From Pseudoscardovia radai (GTDB lineage: Bacteria > Actinomycetota > Actinomycetes > Actinomycetales > Bifidobacteriaceae), in NCBI RefSeq assembly GCF_002259605.1, contig NZ_MWWR01000004.1:62001-126000 (forward strand): a stretch of 64,000 bases of DNA, written 5' to 3'. The position numbers were made by a program, and so were the translations under genes. Below are positions 8,214 through 46,936 of the stretch, in pieces; position 1 is the first letter of the stretch, and every line of letters starts with the position of its first letter. Below the pieces are notes generated by a model. It did not search any database and was not told the origin of the DNA. It was given only the letters and a program-made list of their open reading frames with translations.

Positions 8214-8349
8214 ATGAATTTCTGAACGCTGGCACGGGGGTAACCAGTGAGGGCGACTGTGGGAGGGGGTGTGGGCGAGGGGCGCCGCGTGGAAGCCGCC
8301 ATAAGAAACCGATATAGCGGCCTCGCTGAGTTTCCGGAGAAAAGCGTGT

Positions 8350-12838: not shown

Positions 12839-14703
12839 CGGACAATACGATTGCGAAGGCCGGGGATATCGTGGATGACGCCGCCGAACGCCCGGCCGCG
12901 GACGCCGGCGACGCGACGTCCGCCGGGGCCCGCGATGCCGTCGCCGACCGCCCCATCGTGCTTCATGTCGAGGGCCTCGCCAAATCCTTCGAGGGCCTCA
13001 AGGCCGTCGACGGCATCAGCTTCGACCTGCACCGGGGCGAGGTGCTGTCGATTATCGGGCCGAACGGCTCAGGCAAGTCCACCACCATCAACCTGCTGAG
13101 CGGCTTCCTCAAGCCCGACGCCGGCACAATCAAGCTCGAGGGCCGGTCCATCGCCGGCCTGTCCGCGCCGGAGACCTCCGCGCACGGCCTCGCGCGCACC
13201 TTCCAGAACGGGCGCGTCTTCGGCTCCATGACCGTCGCGCAGAACGTCGCGCTCGGTTACCACAAGAAGCTCACGGCCAACCGCCCTGCGCGCGGCCTGC
13301 AGCGCATCCCCGTGCTGCGCTGGATCCCGCTGCTCGGCGAAGCCGCCGCCTCGCTGGTGCCGTGGCCCTCGGTCAGGCGCGAGAACAGAGCGGTGGCCGG
13401 GCATGTGGATGCCGAGATCGAGCGCTTCGCCGAGCGTCTCGGCCCTCGCCGCGACGATGCCGCGTATACGCTGTCCTACGCCAACCGCCGCCGCACGGAG
13501 ATCGCCCGCGCGCTGGTCTCCGGGCCCACGCTGCTGCTTCTCGACGAGCCGACCGCGGGAATGAACCAGTCCGAGACTGCGGAGATGCTGCATGTTCTGC
13601 AGCGCCTCAAGGCGCAGGGCCATACGATTCTCCTGGTCGAGCACAAAATCGAGCTCGTCACGGCGCTTTCCGACCGCGTGCTCGCCATGGACGGTGGGCG
13701 CATCATCGCACAGGGCGATCCCGACGAGGTGCGCCGCGACCCGCAGGTGGTGGAGGCGTATCTGGGCAAGCGGCGGCCGTCGCGCCCGGCGGCTTCGGAC
13801 TTGGCTTCGGCGTCGGCTTCGGTTTTGGACTCGGCCCACGGAAGGTGGGAGGGACAGAGCGATGTGCTGGCGAAGGAGAACGCAATCGACCGCGAGTCGG
13901 GCACAGGCGCGGGTGCGGACGGTGCTGATGGCGTCGCGGGCCCTGCCACCGAGGGTACGCGTCGTCTGGACTCCATCGCGCCTCTGCTCGCGCTCGATGA
14001 CGTGAACGTCTACTACGGGCAGGCCCATGCGCTGCAAGGGGTCACGATCCGTGTGCCGGAAGGCGCCATTGTGTCTCTTCTCGGTGGCAATGCCTCGGGC
14101 AAGTCCACCACCATGAAAACCATCCTCGGTCTCAAGGAGCCGAAGACGGGGCGCGTGCTTTACCAAGGGCGCGACATCACGCGCGAATCGACGCGCGACC
14201 GCGTGCGCGGCGGCATCGCGGCCGTGCCCGAGGCGCGGCGCATCTTCCCCGAGATGACCGTGCGCGAGAACCTGCTCGTCGGCGCGTATACGCGCACGCG
14301 GGCGCAGGCCGCGCAGGTGCGCGAGGATGTGGAGCGCATGTACGAGCGCTTCCCGCGCCTCAAGGAGCGCCGCAACCAGAAGGCCGGCACGATGTCGGGC
14401 GGCGAGCAGCAGATGCTGGCGTTCGCGCGTGCCCTGATGAGCCATCCGCGTGTGATTTGCATGGATGAGCCGACGATGGGCCTGTCGCCGCGCCTTGTGG
14501 AGGATGTGCTCGAGCAGATCGTGCGGTTGCGCGACGAGCTGGGCGTGTCGGTTCTGATGGTGGAGCAGCAGGCCGAGCTCGCGCTGTCGGTGGCCGACTA
14601 CGGCTATGTTCTGCAGAACGGCCGGATTCGCCTGCACGGCGCCGCGTCCGACCTCCTCGGCGACCCCGAGGTACGGGAGGCCTACCTCGGCGGCGCGCGC
14701 TGA
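12835..14703 (+). CDS. Fused LivG-LivF ATPase of a branched-chain-amino-acid-type ABC transporter
   Basis: A 622-residue protein starting at ATG 12835, overlapping the permease stop by four bases, with AAGGAGGG upstream. Two complete ABC modules are present. LivG-like (about 40-310): Walker A GPNGSGKST, signature-region YANRRRTEIARALVSGP, Walker B LLLLDEPTAGMN. LivF-like (about 385-622): Walker A GGNASGKST, signature MSGGEQQML, Walker B VICMDEPTMGLS. An Ala/Ser/Gly-rich linker of about 75 residues joins them. The first module's signature reads LSYANRR instead of LSYGxQR, as is usual for LivG. With the fused permease, the transporter core is two polypeptides instead of four. Confidence 0.93.
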   Translation: MTDNTIAKAGDIVDDAAERPAADAGDATSAGARDAVADRPIVLHVEGLAKSFEGLKAVDGISFDLHRGEVLSIIGPNGSGKSTTINLLSGFLKPDAGTIKLEGRSIAGLSAPETSAHGLARTFQNGRVFGSMTVAQNVALGYHKKLTANRPARGLQRIPVLRWIPLLGEAAASLVPWPSVRRENRAVAGHVDAEIERFAERLGPRRDDAAYTLSYANRRRTEIARALVSGPTLLLLDEPTAGMNQSETAEMLHVLQRLKAQGHTILLVEHKIELVTALSDRVLAMDGGRIIAQGDPDEVRRDPQVVEAYLGKRRPSRPAASDLASASASVLDSAHGRWEGQSDVLAKENAIDRESGTGAGADGADGVAGPATEGTRRLDSIAPLLALDDVNVYYGQAHALQGVTIRVPEGAIVSLLGGNASGKSTTMKTILGLKEPKTGRVLYQGRDITRESTRDRVRGGIAAVPEARRIFPEMTVRENLLVGAYTRTRAQAAQVREDVERMYERFPRLKERRNQKAGTMSGGEQQMLAFARALMSHPRVICMDEPTMGLSPRLVEDVLEQIVRLRDELGVSVLMVEQQAELALSVADYGYVLQNGRIRLHGAASDLLGDPEVREAYLGGAR

Positions 14704-16381: not shown

Positions 16382-16528
16382 GTTCCGCACGCTACAGGAC
16401 GGCGCGCGGGGCCGCAGCGTGTCGCGAAAATTTGTGGATAAGCGGATAACTCCGCTTCCCTGTGGATAACTGTGCTTCCTGAGGGGCCACGATGGCCCTC
16501 CCTTCGATGCCGCGCCTGCGATCGCCCG

Positions 16529-16722
16529 GAATGGCGTTCGGCGGGTGTGGTGGCACCCGTTTAAGGCGGTTTCGGGTGGTTTGGGGCTGGTTTGGTGCTT
16601 GGAATGGCGTTCGGCGGGTGTGGTGGCACCCGTTTAAGGCGGTTTCGGGTGGTTTGGGGCTGGTTTGGTGCTTGGAATGGCGTTCGGCGGGTGTGGTGGC
16701 ACCCGTTTAAGACGATTTCGGA
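16529..16722 (+). repeat. Tandem array of 73-bp units with CGGGTG/CACCCG hairpin (family 3)
   Basis: Units begin at about 16532, 16605 and 16678; the first two are identical over 73 bp and the third is truncated after TTTAAG. Each holds GGCGTTCGGCGGGTG, a short loop, CACCCGTTTAAGGCGG and TTTCGGGTGGTTTGG. A related pair at the same 73-bp spacing is at 50208-50335. The array is upstream of metG. Confidence 0.85.
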
Positions 16723-16861
16723 CGATCGCGGCGATTCCGGGGCGTGCGGAGGCTGGGGGGAATCGTGGATTATGCGCGCAAGCCGTACCGGTGTTCCTGA
16801 AGAGCGCGCCAGCGCCCGCCGACCGGCGCTCCTTGTCGGCGCTCGTACGGATAATCGCACT

Positions 16862-18739
16862 ATGACTAACGTTCTTGTTTCCGTTGCTTGGCCGTATGCA
16901 AACGGCCCCCGACATATCGGACACGTCGCGGGCTTCGGCGTGCCTTCCGATGTCTACGCCCGGTACGCCCGCATGAAGGGCGACAACGTGCTTATGGTCT
17001 CCGGCACCGACGAACACGGCACGCCGATCCTTGTGCAGGCGGAAGCCGAAGGCGTCAACGCCCAGCAGCTCGCGGACCGCTACAATGCGGTCATCACCAA
17101 GGACCTGTGCGACCTCGGCCTGAGCTATGACCTCTTCACCCGCACCACCACGGCCAACCACGAGCACGTGGTGCAGGAGCTGTTCACGCAGTGCCTCAAG
17201 AACGGTTATATCTACAAGGGCACCCAGCAGGTCGCCATCTCCCCGAGCACCGGGCGCACCCTGCCGGACCGCTACATCGAGGGTACCTGCCCGATCTGCG
17301 GCGCGGACGGCGCACGCGGCGACCAGTGCGACAACTGCGGCAACGAGCTTGACCCGATCGACCTGATCAACCCGGTGTCGAAGATCAACGGCGAAACCCC
17401 GATCTTCAAGGAAACCGAGCATTACTTCCTTGACCTCCCCGCGCTTGCCGAGGCGAACCTCGCCTGGCTCAACACGCGCGAGGGCTGGCGCACGAACGTC
17501 ATCAACTTCTCCAAGGGTCTGTTCAAGGAAGTCAAACCCCGCGCCATTACGCGCGACATCGACTGGGGCATCCCCGTTCCGGTGGACGGCTGGATCGACA
17601 ACCCGAACAAGAAGCTGTACGTGTGGTTCGATGCCGTCATCGGCTACTTCAGCGCCTCCATCGAATGGGCCCGCCGCAAGGGCGACCCCGACGCATGGCG
17701 CGCCTGGTGGAATGACCCGAACGCTCTGGGCTACTACTTCATGGGCAAGGACAACATTACCTTCCACTCCCAGATCTGGCCCTCCGAGCTGCTCGCCTAC
17801 AACGGCGAGGGCAACAAGGGCGGCGAGCCGGGCGACTACGGCCATCTCAACCTGCCGACGCAGGTGGTGGCCAGCGAGTTCATGACCATGGAGGGCAAGA
17901 AGTTCAGCTCCTCCCGCGGCATCGTGATCTACGTCAAGGACATCCTCGCGCGCTACCCCGTGGATGCCGTGCGCTACTACATCTCGATCGCCGGCCCGGA
18001 GAACTCCGACGCCGACTTCACCTGGGCCGAGTTCGTGCGCCACAACAACGAGGAGCTCGTGGCGAGCTGGGGCAACCTGGTCAACCGCGTGGCCGTGCTG
18101 CTGCACAAGAACTTCGGCGAGATCCCCGCCACCAAGCCCGAGTCCTTCACCGACGCCGACCGCGCGCTGCTCGACGAGACGTTGCACGCCTTCGACACCG
18201 TGGGCGGCCTCATCGGCGAGCACCATCAGAAGGCCGCGCTCACCGAGGCCATGCGCATCGTGCAGGAGATCAACAAGTACATCTCCGCCGAGGAGCCGTG
18301 GAAGATCAAGGACGATCCCGACCGCCTCGCCGCCGTCCTCTTCACCGCCGCGCAGGCCGTGATGGACGCCAACGTGCTGCTCGCGCCGTTCCTGCCGCAT
18401 TCCGCGCAGAAGGTGTGGGAGACGATGGGCGGAACCGGCACGTTCTCGCCGCTGCCGCATATCGAGCAGGTCGAGGACCTCGACAAGCCCGGATTCACGT
18501 ATCCGATTATCACCGGCGAGTACAAGCTCGGCGTGAACGTGCATCCGTGGGCGCGCGAGGAGCTCAAGCCCGGCACGCCGATTGCCAAGCCGACGCCGAT
18601 CTTCCAGAAGATTCCGCAGGAGGCCGTGCAGGAAGAGCTCGACCGCTTCCAGGCCGACCTCGACGCCCGCCGCGCCAAGGAGGCCGCGCGCCTCGCCGCC
18701 GAGAAGGCCAAGCTCGCGAAGGAGCAGGGCGCGCAGTGA
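16862..18739 (+). CDS. metG: Methionyl-tRNA synthetase
   Basis: A 625-residue class I synthetase of the zinc-containing MetG type. HIGH motif RHIGHVAG at residues 17-24, zinc knuckle with CPIC and CDNC pairs from about residue 143, SC-fold region [21 protein letters not shown]-equivalent GKKFSSSRG near residue 346, and an anticodon-binding helical domain after 390. The C-terminal 50 residues are a charged Ala/Lys helix; no EMAP-like dimerisation domain is visible. ATG 16862 is chosen because GATAAT ends six bases upstream and no Shine-Dalgarno is present, suggesting a leaderless mRNA. It charges tRNA-Met and initiator tRNA in the cytoplasm. Confidence 0.97.
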
Positions 18740-19067: not shown

Positions 19068-19115
19068 CGAAACCGATTCGCCCGTGGTTCGCCCGTGGGG
19101 TCGCCCGTCTGGACC

Positions 19116-19755
19116 AACAGTGGCTCTCACTGGCACGGTGTTGACCAGTGAGAGCGACCGTTGGAGGCGGAGGCTAGTGTTTTCAACGTCGGGTTGGTTA
19201 ACGGTGCCTCTCACTGGCACGTCACGAACCAGTGAGGCCGACCGTTGCGGGAAAAGACCAGCATTTCCAACGACGAGCCAGCCAACAGTGGCCTTCGCTG
19301 GCACGGTGTTGACCAGTGAGAGCGACTGTTGGGGAGAAGGCCTAGTGTTTTCGACGGTGGAATCGTGAACGGTGCCTCTCACTGGCATGCCACGAACCAG
19401 TGAGGCCGACCGTTGCGGGAAAAGACCAGCATTTCCAACGACGAGCCAGCAAACAGTGGCCTCTCACTGGCACGGTGTTGACCAGTGAGAGCGACTGTTG
19501 GGGAGAAGGCCTAGTGTTTTCAACGCTGGAATCGTGAACGGTGCCTCTCACTGGCATGCCACGAACCAGTGAGGCCGACCGTTGCGGGAAAAGACCAGTA
19601 TTTCCAACGACGAGCCAGCCAACAGTGGCCTTCGCTGGCACGGTGTTGACCAGTGAGAGCGACTGTTGGGGAGAAGGCCTAGTGTTTTCAACGATGGAAT
19701 CGTGAACAGTGCCTCTCACTGGCACGTCACGAACCAGTGAGACCGACCGTTGCCT
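19116..19755 (+). repeat. 84-bp hairpin array A1, eight units, alternating two types
   Basis: Units start at 19116, 19200, 19285, 19368, 19452, 19537, 19621 and 19705 (period 83-85). Each has a 48-bp near-palindrome (AACAGTGGC-type left end, CTCTCACTGG and CCAGTGAGAG inner arms, GACCGTTG-type right end) plus a 36-bp linker. Units alternate: odd ones carry TGTTGACCAGTG and a CCTAGTGTTTTCAACG-like linker; even ones carry CACGAACCAGTG and AAAGACCAGCATTTCC. A 168-bp dimer has thus been amplified about four times. The array lies between metG and tatD. Confidence 0.92.
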
Positions 19756-23898: not shown

Positions 23899-24024
23899 TG
23901 TGCGGGGCGCCGGGGGCGCGCGGTGCCGGCGGGGTGTGCGGCGCCGGCGCTGCGGGTTCTTCGCTTGGCTCCTCTTCCGCGAGATCGTTCCCCGACTTTT
24001 GCTTCCGACCCCCTCGTTTTTCAT

Positions 24025-24468
24025 AAGAGTGCCTCTTACTGGTTGGCGGAGTGCCAGTGAGGGGCACTGTTGGGGAACGGTGCGCGTATTTTCAATGATT
24101 TCCCCGCCAACGGTCGGTCTCGCTGGTTGGCGGCGTGCCAGTGAGGGGCACTGTTGGCCGGGGTTGTGTTGGGAATGCTGGGTTTTGCTTCCAAGGGTCG
24201 GTCTCGCTGGTTGGCGGAGTGCCAGTGAGAGGCACTGTTGGGGAACGGTGCGCGTATTTTCAATGATTCCCCCGCCGACGGTCGGTCTCGCTGGTTGGCG
24301 GAGTGCCAGTGAGAGGCACTGTTGGCCGGGGTTGTGTTGGGAATGCTGGGTTTTGCTTCCAAGGGTCGGTCTCACAGGTCACCGGAGTGCCAGTGAGGGG
24401 CACTGTTGAATCTTCGGGGCGGGCCGATGCGGGCCGGCGTCCGTGTTCGGAAGCCGTACCACGGTTGT
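24025..24468 (+). repeat. 84-bp hairpin array A2, five units, closed by a half family 2 element
   Basis: Units start at 24025, 24109, 24193, 24277 and 24361, exactly 84 bp apart. The loop side reads CTGGTTGGCGG then GTGCCAGTGAG, i.e. inverted relative to arrays A1, A3 and A6. Linkers alternate between GGGAACGGTGCGCGTATTTT and GGGTTGTGTTGGGAATGCTG types. At about 24448-24468 a half element (CGGAAGCCGTACCACGGTTG-like) matches the third arm of family 2. Confidence 0.9.
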
Positions 24469-27571: not shown

Positions 27572-27692
27572 CCGAAACCCATCCCACTGTTATCGATTCC
27601 ATAACAGTGGGATGGGTTTCGGGCATTTTTCGACGATTTCGGGGCCGGAATCGTGGATTTCTGTCCGGAAGTCGTACCACTGTTCCGGGGAG
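27572..27692 (+). repeat. Family 2 palindrome with three arms
   Basis: Arms 1 (27572-27593) and 2 (27601-27622) form a perfect 22-bp hairpin with a 7-nt loop. Their core reads CCCATCCCACTG against CAGTGGGATGGG, whereas the 14.7-kb copy reads CCCATCACATTG against CAGTGTGATGGG, so both arms changed together. Arm 3 (about 27661-27682) is more diverged. TCGTGGATT lies in the core. Confidence 0.88.
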
Positions 27693-27718
27693 GAGCCCGC
27701 GCACTCGCGGATTTGGTT

Positions 27719-28271
27719 AACAGTGGCTCTCACTGGCACTGGGGCGACCAGCGAGAGGGACTGTTGGCGGGGGAATCGTTGGGAATAGGCCGATTCCTTT
27801 CCAACGGTGTCTCTCGCTGGCACGGTGCTGACCAGTGAGAGGGGCTGTTGGCGCAAAAGGCCAGCAATCCCAACGCACATCTCGCTAACAGTGGCCTTCG
27901 CTGGCACGGTGCCGACCAGTGAGGGCCACCGTTGCCGGGGAAGGCTAGTGTTTGCAACGATGGCTTGGTTAACAGTGGCCTTCACTGGCACGGTACTGAC
28001 CAGTGAGAGGGACTGTTGGCGCAAAAGGCCAGCATTCTCAATGAGCATCTCGCCAACGGTGGCCTTCACTGGCACGGTACTGACCAGTGAGGGGGACTGT
28101 TGGCGGGGAAGGCCAGCAATTCCAACGAGCATCTCGCCAACGGTGCCTCTCGCTGGCACGGCGTTGACCAGTGAGAGCCACCGTTGCCGGGAAAGGCTAG
28201 TGTTTGCAACGATGGCTTGGTTAACAGTGGCCCTCACTGGCACTGGGGTGACCAGTGAGGGCCACCGTTGC
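27719..28271 (+). repeat. 84-bp hairpin array A3, seven units
   Basis: Units start at 27719, 27803, 27887, 27971, 28055, 28139 and 28223, each exactly 84 bp after the last. Several left arms read CCTTCGCTGG or CCTTCACTGG opposite CCAGTGAGGG, giving G.U pairs on the + strand. Linkers fall into two classes (CGCAAAAGGCCAGCA-type and GGGGAAGGCTAGTGTTTG-type). The array ends about 25 bp before the TATGAT box of acyP. Confidence 0.92.
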
Positions 28272-28323
28272 CGTCGCGCCAGCGCGCCACGTCGGTATGA
28301 TAGCTGCGGAGGAGGTCAGTGCC

Positions 28324-34445: not shown

Positions 34446-34478
34446 CCGGAGGGGAGATTGCCGTTCGCAAGCCGCCCC

Positions 34479-34612
34479 CACAGTGCCTCTCGCTGGTCGG
34501 TGGGGTGCCAGTGAGGGCCACTGTTGGGGGAGCTGGTGTTGGGAACACTGGCCTTTTTCCGCAAGGGTGGGTCTTGCTGGTCGCCCCAGTGCCAGTGAGA
34601 CTCACCGTTGCC
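34479..34612 (+). repeat. 84-bp hairpin array A4, two units
   Basis: Units start at 34479 and 34563, exactly 84 bp apart, 33 bp after the family 2 element. Loop side reads CTGGTCGGTGGGGTGCCAGT. Both flanking genes (zwf and the AbiEi-like gene) are on the minus strand, unlike the settings of the other arrays. Confidence 0.85.
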
Positions 34613-36014: not shown

Positions 36015-36094
36015 CCATCGCGCATGCGATGCGCGGCGTGTGAAGATGAATCGGGCCGGGGCGGGAGCGGGCCGAACGGGAGCGAAGGCGGGGC

Positions 36095-36480
36095 GACAGT
36101 GGAGCTCGCTGGTTGATGTCGTGCCAGTGAGGGCGACTGTTGGGGGGGAGTCGGTGTTGGGAACACTGGGCTTTTTGCGCAAGGGTCGGTCTTGCTGGTC
36201 GGTGCGGTGCCAGTGAGAGCTACTGTTGGCGGGGTAATCGTTGGGAATGCTCGTTCTGTTGCGAGACAGTGCCCTTCGCTGGTCGCTCCAGTGCCAGTGA
36301 GAGGCACTGTTGGGGGAGTATCTGTTGGGGATACTGGCCTTTTTGCGCAACGGTCGGTCTTGCTGGTCGCTGCGATGCCAGTGAGAGGCACTGTTGGGGG
36401 AGCTGGTGTTGGGAATACTGGTCTTGTTGCGCAACGGTGCCTCTCGCTGGTCGCCTCAGTGCCAGTGAGGGCCACTGTTG
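36095..36480 (+). repeat. 84-bp hairpin array A5, five units
   Basis: Units start at 36095, 36181, 36265, 36349 and 36433: spacing 86 (two extra G in the first linker), then exactly 84. The last right arm ends at 36480 and is followed immediately by GGGGAGG, the Shine-Dalgarno of the HD gene; the same GGGGGAG begins the internal linkers. Confidence 0.9.
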
Positions 36481-45564: not shown

Positions 45565-45683
45565 CGAAACCCGTACCATTGTTGCCGATTCTGCAACAGT
45601 GGTACGGGTTTCGGACATCTTCGACGATTTTGGGCTCGAAAATCGTGGATTTTGTTCGTAAGCCATACCAGTGTTCCGGAGGA
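45565..45683 (+). repeat. Family 2 palindrome with three arms
   Basis: Arms 1 (45565-45585) and 2 (45593-45613) pair over 21 bp with one G.U and a 7-nt loop. The arm core is CCCGTACCATTG with CAGTGGTACGGG, a third co-varied version beside those at 14.7 and 27.6 kb. Arm 3 (about 45653-45674) reads CGTAAGCCATACCAGTGTTC. It follows the MFS gene and leads into array A6. Confidence 0.88.
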
Positions 45684-45727
45684 GGCGACCGCCTCGCGCT
45701 GTGTCCCGTCCTCCTCCCCGCTTGCCG

Positions 45728-46590
45728 AACAGTGCCTCTCACTGGCACGGGGGCGACCAGTGAGACCGACCGTTGCGGACGGAGCCTAGTGTTTTCAACG
45801 CCGCCTTGGTTAACAGTGCCTTTCACTGGCACGGTATCGACCAGTGAGGGCCACTGTTGTCGGTCGGAGTGGGCATTTTCAACGATTTCCCCGTTGACGG
45901 TCCCTCTCACTGGCACGGTAGCAACCAGTGAGACCGACCGTTGCGGCAAAAGCCCAGTGTTCCCAGTGCGAACTTCTCCAACAGTCGGTCTCATTGGCAC
46001 TGGGCTGACCAGTGAGGGCCACTGTTGCGGGCGGGGCCTAGTGTTTTCAACGCCGGTCTGGTTAACAGTGCCTCTCAGTGGCACGGGAGCAACCAGTGAG
46101 AGGGACCGTTGGTAGGGAAAGCAAGCGTTTCCAATGGTGCTTGTCTTAACAGTGCCTCTCAGTGGCACGGGAGCAACCAGTGAGAGCGACCGTTGCGGAC
46201 GGAGCCTAGTGTTTTCAACGCCGCCTTGGTTAACAGTGCCTTTCACTGGCACGGTATCGACCAGTGAGATCGACCGTTACCGCGAAAGCCCAGCGTTCCC
46301 AGTGCGAACTTCTCCAACAGTCGGTCTCATTGGCACTGGGGCGACCGGTGAGGGCCACTGTTGCGGACGGGGCCTAGTGTTTTCAACGCCGGTCTGGTTA
46401 ACAGTGCCTCTCGCTGGCACTGGGGTGATCAGTGAGACCGACCGTTGCGGCAAAAGCCCAGTGTTTTCAATGCGGGTTTCTCCAACGGTGCCTCTCACTG
46501 GCACGGTGGTAACCAGCGAGAGGCACCGTGTGCGGGCGGGGCGTGGGCGGTGGTCCGCGAGCCGTACCACTGTTCCGGAGAGGCGCCCGC
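45728..46590 (+). repeat. 84-bp hairpin array A6, ten units, bracketed by family 2 parts
   Basis: Units start at 45728, 45812, 45896, 45980, 46064, 46148, 46232, 46316, 46400 and 46484: nine successive steps of exactly 84 bp despite sequence drift. Linkers recur in types such as GGAGCCTAGTGTTTTCAACG and AAAAGCCCAGTGTTCCCAGT. A half family 2 element (GAGCCGTACCACTGTTCCGG) closes the array near 46556-46578. Nothing else is seen between the MFS stop and 46786. Confidence 0.93.
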
Positions 46591-46786: not shown

Positions 46787-46936
46787 ATGAAGGCTCTGCG
46801 CACTGTTACGTCCGCCATCGCCACCGCTCTCGTTTCCGTCGTCAGCGGTGTCAACGGCGTTATTGTCGTTCTGCGCAGCATTACCATCGACGCCCTGCGT
46901 CGAATTATTATCAAGCCTTCATCGCTGGTGGACTGA
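46787..46936 (+). CDS. Small 49-residue hydrophobic protein
   Basis: ATG 46787 follows a consensus AAAGGAGGT at eight-base spacing, one of the strongest ribosome sites in the window. The peptide (MKALRTVTSAIATALVSVVS start, then GVNGVIVVLRSITIDALRRI) has one hydrophobic or amphipathic helix and a basic C-terminal segment. No family is recognised. It could be a small membrane protein, a toxin-like peptide or a leader for the transporter at 47176. The 239 bp up to that gene show no other feature. Confidence 0.6.
   Translation: MKALRTVTSAIATALVSVVSGVNGVIVVLRSITIDALRRIIIKPSSLVD

Follow-up and report, generated by a model that had tools for sequence, protein, structure and literature searches.

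Positions 45728 to 46530 of the window, the 64-kb stretch of DNA analysed here, hold ten tandem copies of an 84-bp palindromic unit, and the question that they raise is what kind of element this is and at what level, DNA or RNA, it might act. The earlier note had placed six arrays of such units in the window and described them as hairpins. A rescan of the window found all six where they had been placed, with 8, 5, 7, 2, 5 and 10 units (A1 to A6, respectively), and a count of unit lengths gave 84 bp at every step in A2, A3, A4 and A6, as claimed. The steps that departed from 84 bp in the window were one of 85 bp in A1 and one of 86 bp in A5. The arrays differ in strand, a point absent from that note. 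The features of the window, including two copies of a second element, Rep2, are as follows.

8227..8261, + strand: lone degenerate dyad, a partial unit match
19114..19754, + strand: array A1, 8 units; six steps of 84 bp and one of 85 bp; two linker types alternate, giving a 168-bp period
24020..24408, - strand: array A2, 5 units; every step 84 bp; linkers forward, reverse, forward, reverse
27574..27690, strand not applicable: Rep2 copy just upstream of A3, read directly
27717..28273, + strand: array A3, 7 units; every step 84 bp; linker 1 inverted
34475..34610, - strand: array A4, 2 units; one step of 84 bp
36094..36480, - strand: array A5, 5 units; steps of 86, 84, 84 and 84 bp
45566..45687, strand not applicable: Rep2 copy just upstream of A6, read directly; a CCGTACCAYTGTT...AACARTGGTACGG dyad and then a CGACGATTTT...AAAATCGTGG dyad
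45728..46530, + strand: array A6, 10 units; nine of nine steps 84 bp; 168/336-bp higher-order repeats; linkers all forward

Housekeeping genes predominate next to these arrays (methionyl-tRNA synthetase, TatD, 6-phosphogluconate dehydrogenase, glucose-6-phosphate dehydrogenase, acylphosphatase and an MFS transporter), and inspection of the neighbours agreed with the claim that no obvious mobilising enzyme adjoins the arrays. A small open reading frame (MKALRTV...RRIII) is located downstream of A6 at 46787-46936 and may encode a short peptide or leader; its counterpart in a congener, G002, adjoins the MFS transporter gene with no array between them.

In 1.14 Mb of G000, the genome to which the window belongs (2.44 Mb in 35 contigs, about 92% complete), a unit profile detected 210 units in 43 arrays. 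Targeted stretches of further contigs of this genome yielded 18 more units in 7 arrays, for 228 units in approximately 50 arrays; because contig ends interrupt some arrays (clearly at C20/C23, probably at C32/C33 and C16/C31), the real number of arrays is slightly below 50. The core pattern matched 234 times genome-wide and a reversed control twice, so the arrays lie far above chance. They are unevenly spread, because 216 of the 234 core matches fall in the 47% of the genome that was examined first; dnaA is located on C8, an array-rich contig. All 43 arrays checked were intergenic according to a hexamer-based gene call made for this analysis. Array direction was random with respect to both GC skew and the local gene strand (22 versus 21 in each test), and a replication-strand or gene-strand bias was thus rejected. 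At G000:C35, arrays of two units (13157-13293) and seven units (16810-17367) run in opposite directions 3.5 kb apart and are preceded by the same 150 bp of flanking sequence, an inverted duplication whose start lies at the array or close to it.

One unit is common to all arrays, as had been proposed, whereas its division into a 48-bp palindrome and a 36-bp linker had to be replaced by a better one, a 51-bp dyad and a 33-bp linker. The unit consensus starts with CCAACAGTG and ends with ACCGTTGG, and arrays carry a dyad at both termini. The half-sites of the dyad are AACRGT/ACYGTT (outer) and YTCRCTGG/CCAGYGAG (inner); the dyad is centred on unit position 26 and the linker on position 68, a distance of exactly 42 bp. 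Across the genome, with one step from the two units of congener G003 included, 166 of 179 steps (93%) measured 84 bp, and the 13 exceptions were one step of 83 bp, nine of 85 bp, two of 86 bp and one of 88 bp. Five of the nine 85-bp steps came from a single array, C20/C23, which has a uniform 85-bp period and to which the description "exactly 84" therefore does not extend. Length is constrained more tightly than sequence, as the note had recognised: linkers differ by a mean of 0.555 per site in pairwise comparison and dyads by 0.256, yet 93% of steps are exact. The uniform 85-bp array indicates that a period can be inherited simply by duplication, so that the spacing is not absolute, and constancy of length is a weaker sign of selection because the units share descent.

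The term hairpin, in its functional sense, was not supported by analysis of the 210 units. At the variable arm positions tested for pairing (6/46, 9-12/40-43 and 16/36), complementary pairs occurred at or near, and mostly below, the frequency expected for independent columns, both in the 210 units and in 159 non-redundant ones; a perfect stem was not favoured, and at 16/36 it was even avoided. Given that the arms do not covary, the conserved property must be something other than base pairing. The conservation profiles of the left and right arms nevertheless mirror each other, with r = 0.86 at the exact axis and no more than 0.50 at offsets of 1-4 bases, and R/Y variation is tolerated at -20, -10, +10 and +20 relative to the axis. 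What has been kept is a dyad in the DNA and not a paired stem. Two arms that vary independently while obeying one constraint, as a symmetric DNA-binding protein would demand, fit a protein-recognised dyad better than an RNA hairpin, as far as sequence comparison can indicate.

All 160 linkers belong to a single family, with 114 in forward and 46 in reverse orientation, and a good match of the reverse class to the forward one is reached at an offset of zero and at no other. Dyad polarity follows that of the array in 212 of 212 dyads. Linker inversions are thus exactly in register, and the 84-bp lattice is kept. Not one of the 160 linkers has a sequence that is also present in the opposite orientation, and a weak tree of the 33-bp linkers gave approximately 6 orientation changes as compared with approximately 31 for shuffled labels; the inversions therefore appear few and look like old events rather than a working switch, and an active invertible switch was rejected on the same grounds.

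Arrays most likely grow by blocks of units, to judge from how the units resemble one another. Of 160 units, 108 had their closest relative within their own array, units two or three places apart differed less than immediate neighbours, and higher-order periods of 168, 252 and 336 bp were apparent; in several arrays, TRF scores were higher for 168 and 336 bp than for 84 bp. One array subfamily shares both left and right flanks, whereas most arrays do not. Rep2 is a dispersed element of approximately 82 bp with inverted ends (AACARTG..GGYTTRCGGAC) that is present at many intergenic sites of G000, and its ends are spaced 60 bp start-to-start in 23 of 27 close pairs. It was found within 250 bp of 23 of 43 arrays and of 30 of 381 other intergenic regions, as raw counts uncorrected for intergenic length, and was not found in the examined parts of G001 and G002.

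The earlier note had equated 84 bp with eight turns of B-DNA, an equation strengthened by the near-whole-turn periods of other palindrome families in the genus. Further intergenic palindrome families of G000 are GGCGA (72 bp), GGGTG (73 bp), GTGCA (74 bp), GCGGCC (about 76 bp) and Rep2 (93 bp); two of these occur in the window, GGCGA at 2085-2416 with a 72/144-bp period and GGGTG at 16528-16721 with a 73-bp period, both intergenic and unrelated in sequence to the 84-bp unit. Congener G001 has the families ATGTG (52/105/158/211 bp) and GTCGCCGAA (about 72 bp), G002 has one of 73-74 bp, and G003 has a 73/146-bp family together with an 84-bp array in which two alternating dyads lie 42 bp apart. 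The palindromes of the 84/85-bp array with alternating dyads at G003:C8 5605-5992 differ from those of G000, and its homology to the 84-bp family was rejected, the likeness of the linkers being one seen by eye and the profile match not significant (E 6.4). Periods near whole helical turns in the four species are approximately 52.5, 73, 84 and 105 bp, whereas the families of 72, 76 and 93 bp are 1.5 to 2.5 bp off whole turns. In repeat-distance spectra, each of the four species had a positive phase at 10.5 bp (mean cos 0.41 to 0.71), and the phases at 10 and 11 bp were mostly negative. For five distinct period classes, which were picked post hoc and include families that may be related, p was about 0.007. 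This helical-phase test was designed once the periods were known and covers four species of one genus; its outcome is suggestive.

The family is almost confined to one species. When 189 genomes from the taxonomic family were searched with the unit model, it was found in two, both in the genus of the window, and the second genome, the congener G003, has a single locus with one two-unit array. A pattern scan of a genome collection, from which records of the own genome may have been excluded, gave as its sole match the metagenome-assembled genome "Bifidobacteriaceae bacterium isolate SUG1663", apparently G003. Plasmid and phage searches gave no convincing match, the three single matches in IMG/VR being about the number expected by chance, and a plasmid or phage origin was rejected accordingly. 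Among the open-licence papers searched, none was found to describe the 84-bp arrays, and the one congener was the sole match elsewhere; both outcomes agree with the note, which knew of no described element with this unit. The check for a variable period in relatives that it had suggested hardly applies to a family so nearly confined to one species.

The locus common to both genomes has six units in G000 and two in G003. Around it, G003:C111 33690-36249 is 91-98% identical to G000, and the remainder of the contig about 67-87%; this raised identity suggests transfer of the array by recombination. The G003 array thus probably arrived by gene transfer, with a misassembled contig as the alternative. 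Orthologous sites in congeners had either no array of the 84-bp family or different repeats: downstream of 37981 in G001:C2, the site orthologous to A6, is a different array, ATGTGTGAGYGG...GGCACAT, with multiples of approximately 52.6 bp. No clean target duplication was recognised at empty orthologous sites in these very diverged comparisons.

We tentatively favour an explanation with close to an even chance of being correct, namely that these lineage-specific, non-coding intergenic tandem arrays are phased, putative protein-binding dyads that act at the DNA level. With the linker centre 42 bp from the dyad centre, successive dyads would lie on one face of B-DNA, eight turns apart, and a symmetric (dimeric or tetrameric) putative DNA-binding protein could load along the array on that face, for which phasing would be needed. 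The loaded protein would form a multi-site platform that acts on DNA by bridging, wrapping or topology, irrespective of the direction of neighbouring genes, with a presumed effect on the chromosome. Unequal recombination between units would lengthen or shorten arrays, and copying or recombination, partly along with Rep2, would establish new ones between genes. Several observations speak against this reading: the uniform 85-bp array and the scattered steps of 83, 85, 86 and 88 bp, the families at 72, 76 and 93 bp that miss whole turns, and the congeners, which live without the 84-bp family. If phasing is selected, the arrays would be high-copy platforms for a putative DNA-architecture protein in Bifidobacteriaceae, and the exchange of palindromes between species with geometry roughly kept would constitute a natural experiment on the co-evolution of protein and site. 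A wider proposal, which we consider doubtful, is that of a genus-wide class of intergenic phased-dyad arrays in which several unrelated palindrome families per species, spaced at approximately whole turns (5, 7, 8 and 10), scaffold fast-evolving, sequence-specific nucleoid-organising proteins, the 84-bp family being the most expanded.

The main rival to protein-binding dyads has an appreciable, if smaller, chance of being correct: the arrays would be a selfish or neutral satellite, palindromic repeats without host function that are amplified by unequal crossing-over or template switching at forks, with the figure of 84 inherited through growth by whole units. The higher-order periods, the 108 of 160 units whose nearest relative is in the same array, the restriction to one species with empty orthologous sites, the difference in copy number at the locus common to G003 and the amplification of an 85-bp variant as such are all in keeping with this explanation. 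Neutral decay, however, is not expected to conserve half-sites with mirror symmetry or to keep linker length despite strong divergence, and similar helical spacing recurs in several unrelated families. Even as satellites, the arrays would illustrate how intergenic bacterial DNA can become filled, with no known transposase, by repeats that are strictly periodic and in register.

A non-autonomous mobile element of the REP/REPIN or MITE type, served by a transposase in trans, is unlikely. Approximately 50 intergenic sites in both directions, a subfamily with both flanks in common, and the association with Rep2, whose inverted ends have a fixed spacing, point towards mobility; against it, a PF01797 search that recovered its positive controls found no Y1/RAYT transposase in G000 (about 92% complete), the unit consensus lacks a GTAG or CGTC tag at the palindrome end, dyad orientation does not alternate, and empty sites, in very diverged comparisons, showed no clean target duplication. 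A REP driven by RAYT was rejected given the lack of a Y1 transposase in this genome. We consider an element acting as RNA, whether through transcribed hairpins, as terminators or as a small RNA in repeated form, very improbable: most units could form a near-perfect stem, but the paired columns do not covary, arrays show no preferred direction with respect to genes, and Rfam, one of the databases that the note had proposed to consult, returned no match at the gathering score and only weak, chance-like matches with E up to 1. RNA hairpins and terminators were rejected for these three reasons. Coding repeats of 28 codons are hardly credible. Although 84 is divisible by 3 and long mechanical open reading frames cross some arrays, stops occur in 21 to 125 of 160 units depending on frame, with all frames affected, and among 24 longer arrays 6 lack an open frame altogether; conservation is without strong 3-base periodicity, linkers are found in both orientations, and sister families have periods of 73 and 74 bp. 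The coding reading was rejected because every frame is stopped and codon periodicity is not strong.

Among known repeat systems, a CRISPR array was rejected because the linkers form one homologous, recurrent family and are not unique spacers. Integron attC sites were likewise rejected: the RYYYAAC/GTTRRRY boxes are not matched in the consensus, and the 84-bp unit conserves sequence rather than pairing, whereas attC conserves structure. REP, BIME and REPIN elements are palindromic, intergenic and high in copy number and form regularly spaced clusters (PMC2817692, PMC3116915, PMC3733652), and tandem REP arrays of P. fluorescens have fixed spacings of 72 and 112 bp (PMC3116915). The 84-bp arrays share these general properties, but their palindrome is 51 bp long, compared with 20-40 bp in REP, each array has one polarity whereas REP palindromes alternate, and the long, near-constant 84-bp arrays with invertible-looking linkers are unlike REP. 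BOX of Streptococcus pneumoniae is an intergenic composite in which central modules are repeated in tandem a variable number of times, and it is considered parasitic (PMC3049150). The arrays resemble BOX in having variable tandem modules between genes; unlike BOX, they have no boxA/boxC-like ends across all arrays, flanks being common to one subfamily only, and the target duplications and terminal inverted repeats of BOX were not found in them. The dRS3/RS arrays of neisseriae are intergenic mosaics of inverted-repeat modules with repeats of variable length between 20-bp boxes, in contrast to the near-constant spacing seen here. The MIRU/VNTR loci of mycobacteria are actinobacterial intergenic tandem repeats with a similar unit length and variable copy number, a likeness judged by description, the copy-number contrast for the 84-bp arrays coming from one locus in two species. 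We know of no MIRU that is built of dyads, keeps to a near-fixed lattice of 84 bp or has linkers inverted in register. The arrays are best read as a fast-evolving kind of intergenic palindromic array that in outline resembles BIME, BOX or MIRU.
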